From Desulfovibrionales bacterium (GTDB lineage: Bacteria > Desulfobacterota > Desulfovibrionia > Desulfovibrionales > Desulfonatronaceae): a stretch of DNA of 64,000 nt. Under the pieces are notes generated by a model, which did no database searches, was not told the DNA's origin, and worked only from the letters and a program-made list of their open reading frames with translations. The stretch is from positions 1 through 64,000 of the forward strand of contig REDL01000075.1 of the NCBI GenBank assembly GCA_007693505.1, written 5' to 3'. Shown here in pieces: positions 3,102-49,321 of the stretch (position 1 is its first letter; each line of letters begins with the position of its first letter). The translations under genes and the position numbers were made by a program.

Positions 3102-4703
3102 ATGAAGATCACGTTGCGCATCCGGATCGTCCTGGCCTTGATCGGCCTGTTCTTGGGCGGTTTGTATGCCTTGCCTGCTCTGACCAACCTTCAGGGCACG
3201 TTTCTGGAAAAAATCCTGCCGGAAAGCGAAATTCGCCTTGGCTTGGACCTGCGGGGAGGGATGCATCTGACACTGGGCGTTGATATCCCCCGGGGAATTG
3301 CCAACACCATGGCCCAGTTTGGACAGGAAATCCGTTCTGAAGCCCAGGAGGAAGGACTGTTCATTCTCAGACCACAGGTCGTGAACGACACGGAATTAGC
3401 CTTTACCCTGGCTCGTGGCGCTCAACAGGACCAATTGGAACGGATGCTTGGCAACCGCTTTGTAAATCTGCAGATTCTCGCCAAGGAAACACAGGATGCG
3501 GGGCAGATCCGCTACACCGTGGGCATGACGCAGCAATACCGGGCCCATATCGAGGATCTGCTTGTCGAGCAGGCTATCAAGACCATCCGTAACAGAATTG
3601 ACCAGTTCGGCGTGGCTGAACCGGACATCCGTCGCCAAGCCGACGGTCGGATTCAGGTTCAACTACCTGGGCTGCAGGATCCCGAACGGGCCGTGGCCAT
3701 CATTGGTCGCACCGCTCACCTGGAATTCAAGCTGGTGGATGATGAAGCGGACATCGAGCGGGCCCTGCGCGGAATTCTCCCCACTGACGCGGAACTGAGC
3801 ACCCTGCAGACGCGTAATCCCGATGGCTCACTCTCCCAGTCGCCCATTGTCCTCAAGCGGGATACCCTGATGACCGGCGAGTTTATCACTGATGCCCGGG
3901 TCAGCTTCGATCAATTCAACCAGGCCTATGTGGGTATGAATTTCAATGCCCGGGGAGCCAGAATCTTCGAGCGGATCACTGCGGAAAACACCGGCCGACG
4001 ATTGGCCATTGTCCTGGACGGCAATGTTCATTCAGCTCCGGTCATCCAGGAACGCATCGCCGGTGGGCGCGCCAGCATTACCGGCCGATTCACGACCGAA
4101 GAAGCCACTGACTTGGCGCTGGTGCTCAGAGCCGGGGCCCTGCCCGCGCCGGTGCACATCATGGAAGAACGAACGGTCGGCCCATCTCTGGGCCAGGAGT
4201 CCATCGAACGCGGTCTTCGTGCGGCCCTGATCGGCGGAGCACTGATCCTTCTCTTCATGCTTGTCTATTACAGCATGTCCGGGATGGTAGCCAACACGGT
4301 CCTGTGCTTGAACATTCTACTGGTCATGGCCGGATTGGCCGGCTTCGGCGCAACACTGACCCTGCCTGGCATTGCGGGCATCATTCTGACAATTGGTATC
4401 GCCGTGGACGCCAACGTGCTTATTTTCGAACGGATACGGGAAGAAATACGCCGCGGACTAACCCCGGCCATCGCCATTGACGAAGGCTACAGGCGGGCGC
4501 TGAAAGCCATTCTGGACGCCAACATCACGACCATTATCGCAGCCATTGTCCTTTACCAGTTCGGTACCGGTCCGATCCGCGGATTTGCCGTAACCCTGTC
4601 TTTGGGCATCTTGGCGTCCATGTTTACCGCGGTTTTCGTTTCACGAATATTTTTCGATTTCTGGCTGAAATGGCGCAAGCCCGGCACGCCGTTGAGCATA
4701 TAA
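3102..4703 (+). CDS. secD: Protein translocase subunit SecD
   Basis: A 533-aa inner membrane protein that uses proton flow to help pull secreted proteins out of the SecYEG channel on the periplasmic side. The N-terminal helix (residues 5-25) is followed by the D1 motif GLDLRGGMHLTLGVD. The large periplasmic P1 domain then runs to about residue 360. Five membrane helices follow, containing the RND-type motif GIAVDANVLIFERIREE. The ATG at 3102 was chosen because GAGGA sits six bases upstream; the ATG at 3096 is too close to that site. secF follows after 15 bases. Confidence 0.95.
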   Translation: MKITLRIRIVLALIGLFLGGLYALPALTNLQGTFLEKILPESEIRLGLDLRGGMHLTLGVDIPRGIANTMAQFGQEIRSEAQEEGLFILRPQVVNDTELAFTLARGAQQDQLERMLGNRFVNLQILAKETQDAGQIRYTVGMTQQYRAHIEDLLVEQAIKTIRNRIDQFGVAEPDIRRQADGRIQVQLPGLQDPERAVAIIGRTAHLEFKLVDDEADIERALRGILPTDAELSTLQTRNPDGSLSQSPIVLKRDTLMTGEFITDARVSFDQFNQAYVGMNFNARGARIFERITAENTGRRLAIVLDGNVHSAPVIQERIAGGRASITGRFTTEEATDLALVLRAGALPAPVHIMEERTVGPSLGQESIERGLRAALIGGALILLFMLVYYSMSGMVANTVLCLNILLVMAGLAGFGATLTLPGIAGIILTIGIAVDANVLIFERIREEIRRGLTPAIAIDEGYRRALKAILDANITTIIAAIVLYQFGTGPIRGFAVTLSLGILASMFTAVFVSRIFFDFWLKWRKPGTPLSI

Positions 4704-4718
4704 GGAGCAGGGAAGAGC

Positions 4719-5810
4719 ATGGGACTGCAAATTATACGTCCGGATACCCGGATCAATTTTTTGAAATTGCGCTACGGGGCGTTTCTCATATCCGCCCTGT
4801 TGATCCTGGCCGGCTTGACCTCCCTGGTGATCAAGGGCGGACCCCAGTTGGGCATCGACTTTTCCGGCGGGATGATCATTCAGATCAAGTTCGACCAGCA
4901 GATTGAACTCCCCCGAGTCCAGGAAGCTCTTCAGGGAACAGACCTCCCCGGTCTGGGTGTCCAGCAATTCGGTGGCGCCCAGGATAACGAGATTCTTGTG
5001 CGCACCTCAGCTACGGACCTGGCATCGGATGTGGTGCGCCGTAATGTTCAGGGCAATCTTGAACAGCATTTGGTCAATGTCGGATTTGAAATCCAACGCC
5101 TGGAAATGGTTGGCCCACGGGTTGGCGCAGACCTGCGCGCCCAGGCAATGGAAGCACTGTTCTACGCCATCTTGCTCATTGCGATCTACATTTCCGGCAG
5201 ATTCGAGCAGCGGTGGTTCCCGGCTGTAGTCATGGCCGCTGGACTTGCCGGAGGTATCGCAATATTGCGCTGGCTGGGCCTGCCTCTGGAACTCTTGGTC
5301 GTCGCTGCCTTGCTCATCACCATCGGCTTATGCTGGAAGCTCAAGCTTTCCTATGCCCTGGGAGCCGTGGTTGCCCTGGTTCATGATGTCTTCATCACCT
5401 TCGGCCTTTTTTCCGTGCTGAACAAAGACTTGGACTTGGCCATTATCGCTGCCTTTCTGACCATTATCGGCTACTCTCTCAATGACACCATTATTGTCTA
5501 CGATCGCATTCGGGAGAATATCCGGAGCAATGTCGACATGACGCTGCCCAAGGTCATCAATCTCAGCATCAATCAAACCCTGAGCCGGACCATCATTACC
5601 TCAGGAACGACCCTCCTTGTCGTGCTTTGCCTGGTTCTTTTAGGCGGTGGAGTCATTCACGACTTTGCGCTGGCCCTGCTTATCGGTATTGCCGTAGGCA
5701 CCTTTTCCTCCATTTTCATCGCCAGCCCGATTCTTCTGGGACTTTCCAAGATTGCCGACGTGGATCTTGAAGCTGACGCCAACCGTGACTCGGAACCTGC
5801 AACCGTATGA
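4719..5810 (+). CDS. secF: Protein translocase subunit SecF
   Basis: A 363-aa partner of SecD in the SecDF complex. It has the N-terminal helix, the motif GIDFSGGMIIQIKF, a periplasmic region and then a membrane bundle with GYSLNDTIIVYDRIREN, the conserved signature of SecF. The length is typical for a separate SecF; SecDF is not fused here. GGAAGAG precedes the ATG. It is transcribed with secD and probably with the small tautomerase gene 43 bases downstream. Confidence 0.95.
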   Translation: MGLQIIRPDTRINFLKLRYGAFLISALLILAGLTSLVIKGGPQLGIDFSGGMIIQIKFDQQIELPRVQEALQGTDLPGLGVQQFGGAQDNEILVRTSATDLASDVVRRNVQGNLEQHLVNVGFEIQRLEMVGPRVGADLRAQAMEALFYAILLIAIYISGRFEQRWFPAVVMAAGLAGGIAILRWLGLPLELLVVAALLITIGLCWKLKLSYALGAVVALVHDVFITFGLFSVLNKDLDLAIIAAFLTIIGYSLNDTIIVYDRIRENIRSNVDMTLPKVINLSINQTLSRTIITSGTTLLVVLCLVLLGGGVIHDFALALLIGIAVGTFSSIFIASPILLGLSKIADVDLEADANRDSEPATV

Positions 5811-46280: not shown

Positions 46281-46793
46281 TCACTGGACCACGAATTCCG
46301 TGAAGTACACGTTGGTTACCCTGCCGCCCCCAACGATCTGGTTCAACCGCTCCACAATCTCGTTTTTCAGGGTGATCTTGCCCTCCATGCTGGCCAGATC
46401 GGCAAACGATTTCCCGGCCAAAAGCAGGATCACGGCGTCCCGGATGCGTGATGTGGATCGCTGCACCTCGCCCACCGCGGCCCGATCCCGCACCTCCACG
46501 TCCAGGGTCATGCGCAGAAACCGCCTGCCCAGAGGGTCGGCCAGATTGACAATAAAGGGGTCCAGCCTCACGATTTCCGGTGTAAAATCCGCTCTGGTTC
46601 CTGTCGCTTCCGCCCCGGGAACAGCCTGCTCCCCGGCCTGCTCCCCGGATTCGGCCCCCGGCCCCATCAAAAACCAGTAGGCAGCAGCCCCGCCGCCGCC
46701 CAACAGCAACAACACCAGCAGCAGGACGATCCATTTCGCCTTGCCGCCCTTTTTCGGTTCTTCCTCCACAGGAGCTGCGTTCTTTTTTGCCAT
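46281..46793 (-). CDS. fliL: Flagellar basal body protein FliL
   Basis: A 170-aa single-pass inner membrane protein that surrounds and supports the stator. The helix lies at about residues 20-43 (AKWIVLLLVLLLLGGGGAAA). A periplasmic domain follows, with LDPFIVNLADPLGRRFLRMTL and the C-terminal VYFTEFVVQ, both family features. A negatively charged linker with repeated GEQAGEQA lies between. It is between motB1 and fliM. Confidence 0.93.
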   Translation of the reverse strand: MAKKNAAPVEEEPKKGGKAKWIVLLLVLLLLGGGGAAAYWFLMGPGAESGEQAGEQAVPGAEATGTRADFTPEIVRLDPFIVNLADPLGRRFLRMTLDVEVRDRAAVGEVQRSTSRIRDAVILLLAGKSFADLASMEGKITLKNEIVERLNQIVGGGRVTNVYFTEFVVQ

Positions 46794-46867: not shown

Positions 46868-47587
46868 CTACAATGCGGTTTTAAAGAGAATTTCCACCCG
46901 TCGATTCAGGGCCCGTCCTTCAGCTGTTCGATTGTCACCCACCGGCATGCGCTCCGCGTACGCCGAGACGGTCAGCTGGGCATCCGGAAGCCCGGCGGCC
47001 AGGAGGACCTCCAGCACGGATAAAGCCCGCAATGCGGACAGGGTGTCGTTGTCCATGGTTCGGCCCACCAGGCTGTCCGTGTGCCCGGAGACGTTCACCA
47101 CGTTGGGAACGAAGAGAACCAGGGGCGCCAATATTTCCAAAAGCCGCTTGGCGGGATCGTCCAACGTGTAGCCTCCCAAGGGAAAAAGCAGATCCTCGGT
47201 GAGCAGGATGGCCACCCCTTCCGGACGTTCCAGGAGCCGAAGGTTCTCGTCCAGTGTGGAACGGGGAATCTCCCGCGGCAACACGTCGTCCGGGAACAAT
47301 AAATCCCGGATGCGCTGTTCATTGTCCCGGAATTCCCAGGGACGTTCCAGCAGTTCCACGACCATTTCCACCTTGGTGGGAATACGACCGGCGGTCTGTC
47401 TGGAAACAACCCCCAGGTTGGCTCCAAAAAGCGTCATGGCCTCGGTGATCACCTGGCGATCCATGGACGACATGCTCAACAGCAAGACAAAAAAGGTCAA
47501 GAGCAGGGTGATCAAATCGGAGAACGTGGTCAACCACCCCATGGGATCAACCTTGCTCCCTCCGCCCTTTTTCTTTCGCTTGGCCAC
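46868..47587 (-). CDS. motB: Flagellar stator protein MotB (canonical copy)
   Basis: A 239-aa stator subunit. The N-terminal helix reads TTFSDLITLLLTFFVLLLS, with the proton-carrying Asp at residue 24. The C-terminal OmpA-like domain binds peptidoglycan (VNVSGHTDSL, LSVLEVLLAAGL, EGRALNRRVEILF). It pairs with MotA to form the ion channel that drives rotation. A second motB-like gene lies directly upstream. Proton versus sodium use cannot be told with certainty. Confidence 0.92.
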   Translation of the reverse strand: MAKRKKKGGGSKVDPMGWLTTFSDLITLLLTFFVLLLSMSSMDRQVITEAMTLFGANLGVVSRQTAGRIPTKVEMVVELLERPWEFRDNEQRIRDLLFPDDVLPREIPRSTLDENLRLLERPEGVAILLTEDLLFPLGGYTLDDPAKRLLEILAPLVLFVPNVVNVSGHTDSLVGRTMDNDTLSALRALSVLEVLLAAGLPDAQLTVSAYAERMPVGDNRTAEGRALNRRVEILFKTAL

Positions 47588-47650: not shown

Positions 47651-48487
47651 TTACGGGCGGACCGGATCCGGGGCCGGATCATCCGGAAACCTGAAGATGA
47701 AGTCCCGGTAGATGAACTGCTCCGGCGTGACCATGACCTCTGGGCGGGCCAATCGCGGCGCCCAGGACTCGGCCCGCCGGTCCAGGATGAACTCCACCCG
47801 CCTGTTGGCTCGGCGTCCCTCGGGCGTTTGGGGATTCCCGCGTGGCTGAAAGCGCCCCAGCCCTTCCATCCGGAGATTGCCCACCGGAACGCCCTGCTCC
47901 AGCAAAAATTGATAAACGCTCATTGTCCGGAACAGGGACAGTGCCCAGGACGGGTCCGGAATCTCGTCCTGCATCACGACCAGATAGTCCGCTACAAACT
48001 CGTCGCGCAAAATCGAGGTATGCCCGGCAATCTGCACCGGCGAAGCCACGGTCTGCAACACCGGGACCACCTGCTCCAGAAACACCCGGCCCTCGGAGGA
48101 GAGCTCGGTCTGACCCGGTTCGAACAAAACAGCCGTGTTGACGCTAAAAATCTGAACGAACCGGTTGCTGACGAACTGCAGGTCCTCCTCGATATCGTCC
48201 CAGAGCAGGTCCTTGAGCGCGGCCAAGTCGTGATCCGGCGGGATCGGCCCGGGATGAACGGTATCCACCATTTCCCGAACCCCCAAAACATCCGGCTTGG
48301 CCGGGGCCATGCCAAAAGTGCCGAGTAGCGAACCAATGGCCAAACGGATTCGTCGCTCATCCATCAACGATGCATTGGTCACCAGGTAGACAAAAAACGC
48401 CATGATCAGAATCATCAACCCCGTGAAGGTCAACAGCCATCCCGGAGTTTGCGGCGGCGCCTTTTTTTTTTCCCGCTTCCTGGCCAT
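47651..48487 (-). CDS. MotB-like protein lacking the channel Asp
   Basis: A 278-aa protein with the MotB plan: basic N-terminus, one helix, plug-like linker, and a C-terminal OmpA-like domain ending EGRRANRRVEFIL. In the helix (LLTFTGLMILIMAFFVYLV) the essential Asp of MotB is Gly23, encoded by GGG at 48419-48421. The peptidoglycan motif GHTD reads GHTS. It therefore cannot carry protons in the usual way. It sits between motA and the canonical motB, in the same operon. It may be a structural stator partner, regulator or decoy. Confidence 0.88.
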   Translation of the reverse strand: MARKREKKKAPPQTPGWLLTFTGLMILIMAFFVYLVTNASLMDERRIRLAIGSLLGTFGMAPAKPDVLGVREMVDTVHPGPIPPDHDLAALKDLLWDDIEEDLQFVSNRFVQIFSVNTAVLFEPGQTELSSEGRVFLEQVVPVLQTVASPVQIAGHTSILRDEFVADYLVVMQDEIPDPSWALSLFRTMSVYQFLLEQGVPVGNLRMEGLGRFQPRGNPQTPEGRRANRRVEFILDRRAESWAPRLARPEVMVTPEQFIYRDFIFRFPDDPAPDPVRP

Positions 48488-48524
48488 GGGGGCTCTCCCG
48501 GCATATTGCCCGCCAAATCAACGC

Positions 48525-48566
48525 GACAGGGTCAATCCGACAGGGTCAATTCAACTGGATCAGTCC
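48525..48566. repeat. Degenerate 14-bp tandem repeat at the motA 3' end
   Basis: GACAGGGTCAATCC, GACAGGGTCAATTC and AACTGGATCAGTCC are consecutive 14-base units, the first two nearly identical. The motA stop codon lies within the third. This is the second short repeat array in this flagellar operon. Confidence 0.6.
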
Positions 48567-49321
48567 GACTGCGTCCGCATTTTCGGAGGCAGGTATCCGT
48601 TGAGTTTTTCCTCAATGATCCTTGGATTTTCACCACGGGAGATGGACAAGATCCCCTCCAGAGCCAACTCCCGGAGCAGCACTTCCTCCTTGCTCCGGGT
48701 ACGCAACTTCCCGGAAAGCGGATTGAAAACCAGGTTGGCCAGGACAGCGCCGTAGAACGTGGTGATCAAGGCCACGGCCATGGCCGGTCCAATGGCTGCC
48801 GGGTCGTCCATGCTTTGCAGCATCTGCACCAGGCCGATAACCGTGCCGATCATGCCCAGGGCCGGAGCGTACATGCCCATGGCCGCGAAAATATCCGCCC
48901 CGGTCTCATGGCGTTCCTGGAGATAGGCAATCTCCGTTTCCATGATGTCCTGGATCATCTGCGGTTCCACCCCGTCCACCGTCAGCTGCATGGCTTTGCG
49001 CAGATAGGGGTCGTCGATTTCCTTGAGCAGGGGCTCCAGGGAGAGAATGCCTTCCTTGCGGGCCCGGTTGGCGTATTCCAAAAACTGGCCAATGGTCTCT
49101 GACGGCTTGGGCAGCTGGGCAAAAAAACAATTCTTGACCACACCGGCCACGCCGAGAATGTGCCCCAAAGGGTAGTGGACCAGCGTTGCCCCCAGGGTGC
49201 CGCCAAGAACGATCAATGCGGAAGGGATGGATACGAACACGAACAGGCTGCTGCCCATCATGATCGCGGAAATGACCAGCCCGAAGGAAAGCACTACCCC
49301 GATGATCGTCGCCAGATCCAT
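48560..49321 (-). CDS. motA: Flagellar stator protein MotA
   Basis: A 253-aa stator subunit with four membrane helices. Family features are IIGVVLSFGLVISAIMMG, FVSIPSALIVLGGTLGATLVHYP, the cytoplasmic loop, and GMYAPALGMIGTVIGLVQML with the conserved channel proline, followed by ALITTFYGAVLANLVFNPLSGKL. It is the first gene of the minus-strand flagellar operon. Its 3' end runs into short 14-bp repeats (48525-48566). Confidence 0.95.
   Translation of the reverse strand: MDLATIIGVVLSFGLVISAIMMGSSLFVFVSIPSALIVLGGTLGATLVHYPLGHILGVAGVVKNCFFAQLPKPSETIGQFLEYANRARKEGILSLEPLLKEIDDPYLRKAMQLTVDGVEPQMIQDIMETEIAYLQERHETGADIFAAMGMYAPALGMIGTVIGLVQMLQSMDDPAAIGPAMAVALITTFYGAVLANLVFNPLSGKLRTRSKEEVLLRELALEGILSISRGENPRIIEEKLNGYLPPKMRTQSD

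Follow-up and report, generated by a model that had tools for sequence, protein, structure and literature searches.

Why would a flagellar motor operon keep, directly between its motA and its canonical motB, a second intact MotB from which the ion-binding aspartate has gone? The question is raised by a minus-strand operon in the window analysed here (the whole stretch of DNA, 64,000 nucleotides), which lies in the genome of a Desulfonatronum, a sulfate reducer of the soda-lake type. We refer to the Asp-less gene (ORF 47651-48487, minus strand) as MotB1 and to the neighbouring canonical motB (46868-47587, minus strand) as MotB2. The operon runs motA, MotB1, MotB2, fliL, fliM and fliN, followed by export genes, all on the minus strand, and the first four genes are separated by gaps of 72, 63 and 74 nt:

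48560..49321, minus strand: motA, the sole motA of the operon, with pore residues P153, T160, T187 and T188 conserved (Pfam, alignment)
47651..48487, minus strand: MotB1, an Asp-less MotB paralogue of 278 aa (ORF, Pfam, orthologues equally placed in about 100 loci of the order)
46868..47587, minus strand: MotB2, a canonical motB with Asp24 (47516-47518) and GHTD (ORF, Pfam, alignment)
46281..46793, minus strand: fliL (place in the conserved motA-motB1-motB2-fliL-fliM-fliN order), a name that we take from established flagellar gene order

The initial annotation, made from the window alone, had described an intact MotB paralogue carrying Gly23 for Asp between motA and the canonical motB, and the ORF, Pfam matches and alignment agree with it. 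The MotB1 frame begins with ATG, downstream of a ribosome-binding-like GGGAGAG, and is open through all 278 aa. Its product passes the Pfam cut-offs of both MotB_plug (PF13677; 31.4 bits, cut-off 24) and OmpA (PF00691; 40.2 bits, cut-off 27.2), so that an OmpA-like periplasmic domain is present; because the matches are to these two families and not to ExbD, a protein of the ExbD/TolR type is excluded. A monomer structure prediction from four sequences was poor (pLDDT 48, pTM 0.47). Two further features lie around the 5' end of the gene: the gap between motA and MotB1 (48488-48559) holds TTGACCCTGTCG twice in close tandem, and at 48462-48472, where MotB1 begins with a Lys-rich stretch, a run of T on the plus strand (A in the gene) might allow slippage.

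The transmembrane helix reads WLLTFTGLMILIMAFFVYL in MotB1 and WLTTFSDLITLLLTFFVLL in MotB2, and two features of the former are central to what follows:

48368..48439, minus strand: MotB1 transmembrane helix, residues 17-40, with its ion-facing side rewritten (G23, I26, A30, Y34, N38)
48419..48421, minus strand: Gly23, codon GGG, in the place of the MotB ion-binding Asp (alignment, codons of congeners)

The ion-binding residue is D32 in E. coli MotB and D24 in Vibrio PomB (PMC9093738); residues 17-42 of MotB1 include no acidic residue. Gly occupies position 23 in 8/8 Desulfonatronum genomes (all those of the genus and family examined, our own included), and its codon varies among the species between GGG, GGC, GGT and GGA. 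A local mutation or sequencing error is ruled out by this sharing of Gly among eight congeners through four different codons.

The change extends along the helix. Scoring departures at columns at least 80% conserved in the remaining orthologues (70 columns, 16 of them in the helix), we found six that are fixed in the genus, D23G, T26I, L29M, T30A, L34Y and M38N, every one inside the helix (hypergeometric p = 6e-5, a value that ignores phylogeny, since all six changes share one branch, though the concentration in the helix is still clear). On a 100-degree helix model, all but one of the six fall no more than 60 degrees from residue 23, and the side facing away from the ion is conserved (W17, L27, F31, F32, L35). 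In Desulfonatronum MotB1, then, the ion-facing side of the helix is rewritten and the remainder of the gene is kept. No compensating changes were found in the MotA pore, the genus-specific changes of MotA falling outside the conserved TM3/TM4 pore motifs. Within the genus, dN/dS (Nei-Gojobori) is about 0.05-0.24 for MotB1, near the 0.05-0.15 of MotB2, and these ratios are rough because several dS values approach saturation; among the four closest species compared (L001, L006, L007, L117), dN in the MotB1 helix is 0, with dS of 0.24-0.8 for the pairs computed. MotB1 is under purifying selection, and its Asp-less helix is maintained. As an intact, selected paralogue without the ion-binding Asp, the Desulfonatronum MotB1 is probably non-conducting.

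Is the loss old or recent? A MotB1 orthologue was found in about half of 297 genomes of the class, and many genomes of the order are without the motB1-motB2 tandem altogether. We fetched 100 loci of the order for comparison (in L079 the contig ends before motA; in L074 MotB1 and MotA are listed swapped, an effect of reading the open frame stop to stop), among which the order motA-motB1-motB2-fliL is nearly universal. The channel residue of MotB1 is Asp in 90 of these loci, Gly in 8, Ser in 1 and cut off in one, and that of MotB2 is Asp in all 100. Since the eight Gly-bearing MotB1 all belong to Desulfonatronum and orthologues elsewhere in the order have Asp in 90 of 92, the loss is, on this comparison, derived and fixed in the genus rather than local. 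The conservation of Gly that the initial annotation had wished to see examined thus holds throughout Desulfonatronum and ends there, the other families of the order having Asp. A separate loss within the order, in a different family, occurs at L111 (genome G149; 4079-4921, minus strand), where Ser stands at the channel site and T has become L three residues on.

The periplasmic part of MotB1 has a history of its own, for which two further features are needed:

48014..48025, minus strand: GHTS, residues 155-158, in the place of the wall-binding GHTD (without Asp in 100/100 MotB1 of the order)
47687..47713, minus strand: MotB1 C-terminal tail IYRDFIFRF, with FxF (alignment A1)

In OmpA-like domains, the Asp of GHTD and the Arg of the RA motif are the peptidoglycan-binding pair. 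Desulfonatronum MotB1 has Ser158 in place of that Asp, and Arg187 of the RA motif is present; across the order, the Asp position in MotB1 holds Ser, Ala, Gly or Thr in 100/100, the second-motif Arg is invariant, and most MotB2 have the Asp. As read from these alignments, GHTS is a paralogue-wide property in the order, older than the loss of the channel Asp and different from it in history. Being an order-wide trait of MotB1, it is ruled out as part of the Asp-loss change. GHTS had been listed beside Gly23 in the initial annotation; the motif is there, with a history apart from the loss of the channel Asp. The further suggestion made there, that MotB1 could anchor stators, is unlikely for Desulfonatronum, in which the wall-binding Asp is absent as well through that much older loss. 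Twelve tandems of the order are without the canonical wall-binding Asp in both MotB1 and MotB2, so the motif is not strictly needed. At the C-terminus, F256 and F258 of alignment A1 are invariant in 40/40 MotB1; the FxF tail is nearly invariant through the order and can still be made out in most MotB1 of tandems elsewhere in the phylum, whether or not they have the channel Asp, and the MotB1 periplasmic domain is under constraint equal to that on MotB2's.

A search outside the order with the MotB1 profile (alignment A1) uncovered motB1-motB2 tandems in many families of the phylum. Across 168 tandems (these and the following counts being of genomes or loci, not of loss events), the channel Asp is present in MotB2 in 168/168 and in MotB1 in 105, leaving 63 MotB1 without it (48 Ser, 8 Gly, 4 Thr, 3 Ala); at single-MotB loci it is present in 60/60. 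The Thr three residues past the channel site has become Leu or Ile in all 63 Asp-less MotB1, as against 1 of the 105 with Asp. By family, the MotB1 channel residue is Ser at all loci seen in f38, Ser or Thr in f87 (30 loci), Ala or Ser in f21 and Ser at one f73 locus, and Asp in f39, f43, f54, f76 and f96. Some tandems of f43, f76 and f96 (L224-L233) have no motA within about 3 kb on either side, and carry Asp in both MotBs.

When MotB1 and MotB2 were concatenated for a tree, with the MotB1 helix left out, the Asp/non-Asp character changed at least four times on it. AU tests on subsets of the 90-row tree reject one shared origin for the Desulfonatronum and G149 losses (p-AU 0.0008) and do not reject a single origin of all losses outside the order (p-AU 0.33). 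We would therefore count at least three independent losses as the safe minimum: in Desulfonatronum, in G149 and, once or more, outside the order. This recurrent loss of Asp, always beside an intact copy, suggests motors built of two unequal halves.

How the two Asp motifs are shared out between the paralogues differs among lineages. In the host's order the GHTD Asp has gone from MotB1 and the channel Asp mostly survives there, with the Desulfonatronum protein lacking both; in f38, a MotB1 with GHTD and no channel Asp stands next to a MotB2 that nearly always has the two. In f87 (L215-L218, L260-L289), the channel Asp is absent from all MotB1 and the GHTD Asp is kept in nearly all; MotB2 there has the channel Asp in all and Asn at the GHTD place in 23/29 (GHTN, CHTN, FTN). 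Because of these reciprocal losses, neither f87 copy alone looks complete on canonical motifs, and if MotB1 and MotB2 homodimers were the working units, the f87 operon would be without a canonical complete stator. We infer that a MotB1-MotB2 heterodimer would explain the reciprocal losses simply.

In known stators a ring of five MotA encloses two MotB, and each MotB has one ion-binding Asp (PMC9389320). We propose that MotB1 and MotB2 may together form an unequal axle inside one MotA ring of a flagellar stator, in which MotB2 alone would carry ions, a reading to which we give an even chance. In its support, one motA serves two motB genes, and Asp is missing in MotB1 alone, always alongside an Asp-bearing MotB2. 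Against it count the twelve tandems of the order without a wall-binding Asp in either copy, the chance that the losses outside the order were one event, and the other stator loci of Desulfonatronum. The heterodimer would be housed in a single MotA ring; MotB2 alone would bind and pass the ion and grip the cell wall canonically, and MotB1 would complete the two-helix axle and, via the conserved FxF tail, retain a periplasmic role. The two Asp of an ordinary stator alternate; here one site would be used in place of two, so that ion binding would be expected to happen fewer times in each turn of the MotA ring. More tentatively, and at somewhat less than an even chance, stators with an obligate heterodimeric axle could exist across the phylum, with ion conduction and wall binding divided between MotB1 and MotB2, both where one channel Asp is left (Desulfonatronum, several families) and where the losses are reciprocal (f87).

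It is possible that MotB1 instead works outside the MotA ring, as a structural or regulatory motor part such as a MotB-derived periplasmic scaffold or a stator-recruiting factor, the channel Asp having been lost where conduction was unneeded. The conservation of the FxF tail in MotB1 with and without Asp is in keeping with such a role, as is a periplasmic domain constrained as strongly as that of MotB2; OmpA-domain accessories (MotY) exist in known motors, and the MotB1 profile weakly matches MotY in the PDB. However, most MotB1 of the order, and those of several other families, have retained Asp along with the entire MotB helix, and the conserved W17, L27, F31, F32 and L35 are what is expected of a helix packing in a MotA-like setting, and we consider a place outside the ring unlikely, if a serious contender. 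A poorer prospect, which takes up the torque tuning suggested in the initial annotation, is that non-conducting MotA-MotB1 homodimeric units fill places in the stator ring, where they would act as a brake or be kept in reserve and so tune torque. A shared MotA and the full MotB layout of MotB1 agree with it, but the absence of the GHTD Asp makes independent anchoring doubtful in Desulfonatronum, and in f87 the conducting copy is mostly without the wall-binding Asp, which leaves no canonical complete unit.

Two other accounts seem to us very improbable. Were MotB1 decaying, with the Asp lost through relaxed constraint on a redundant paralogue, the complete absence of the tandem from many genomes of the order would be easily understood; yet the gene is intact in 8/8 congeners with dN/dS of about 0.1, its helix has hardly varied since the change, Gly is retained although four synonymous codons are used for it, and elsewhere whole families are fixed for the absence of Asp. 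We give as little credence to conduction by the Asp-less helix through another residue or with another coupling ion (Tyr34, Asn38): Tyr34 and Asn38 were gained on the same helix side in Desulfonatronum, but they are absent from the other Asp-less lineages, in all of which the ion-facing Thr is Leu or Ile.

MotB1 is like MotB, PomB and MotS in its motA neighbour, its single N-terminal helix with plug region and its OmpA-like periplasmic domain, and unlike them in being without the ion-binding Asp, in having GHTS for GHTD and in its extra C-terminal FxF tail. The MotB1 family profile matches PDB entries 8ucs, 6ysf and 3khn by sequence; 8ucs, the best match and the only one whose alignment was viewed, carries the helix Asp, unlike MotB1. 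Aquifex aeolicus has a motA/motB1/motB2 operon, likewise with one motA and two motB, in which the MotB helix regions are 97% identical with one difference, Gly20/Ser20, and each, made into a chimera, is functional together with MotA in E. coli (PMC4525482); going by this published description, the Desulfonatronum MotB1 and MotB2 helices differ from those of Aquifex in not being nearly identical. AglR-AglQ-AglS, the Myxococcus gliding motor, combines one MotA/TolQ-like and two ExbD/TolR-like proteins encoded in one cluster (PMC3169522), and whether AglQ and AglS form a heterodimer has been called not known in a review (PMC9389320). Likened by description, AglRQS differs from the MotB1 operon in its ExbD/TolR-type B subunits and in driving gliding rather than flagellar rotation. 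In the literature searched, mostly outside subscription journals, neither a natural MotB without the Asp nor a heterodimer of MotBs was found described. The one-motA/two-motB operon is already known from Aquifex.

Flagellar stator models assume two equal MotB helices that alternate in ion binding. Natural one-Asp axles, fixed family-wide, would, if real, show whether torque needs two sites, and would be ready-made material for trapping the cycle at a defined step. The MotB1/MotB2 pattern also bears on the AglRQS question of whether paired B subunits act as heterodimers.

Besides the operon described here, the genome to which the window belongs (G000) has two more MotA-MotB loci (C64, C80), with Asp in their MotBs. 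Because Desulfonatronum has these other complete stator loci, motility need not depend on the motA-MotB1-MotB2 operon, and the Desulfonatronum motor may hold mixed stators. A fifth MotB_plug match in G000 lies on C24.
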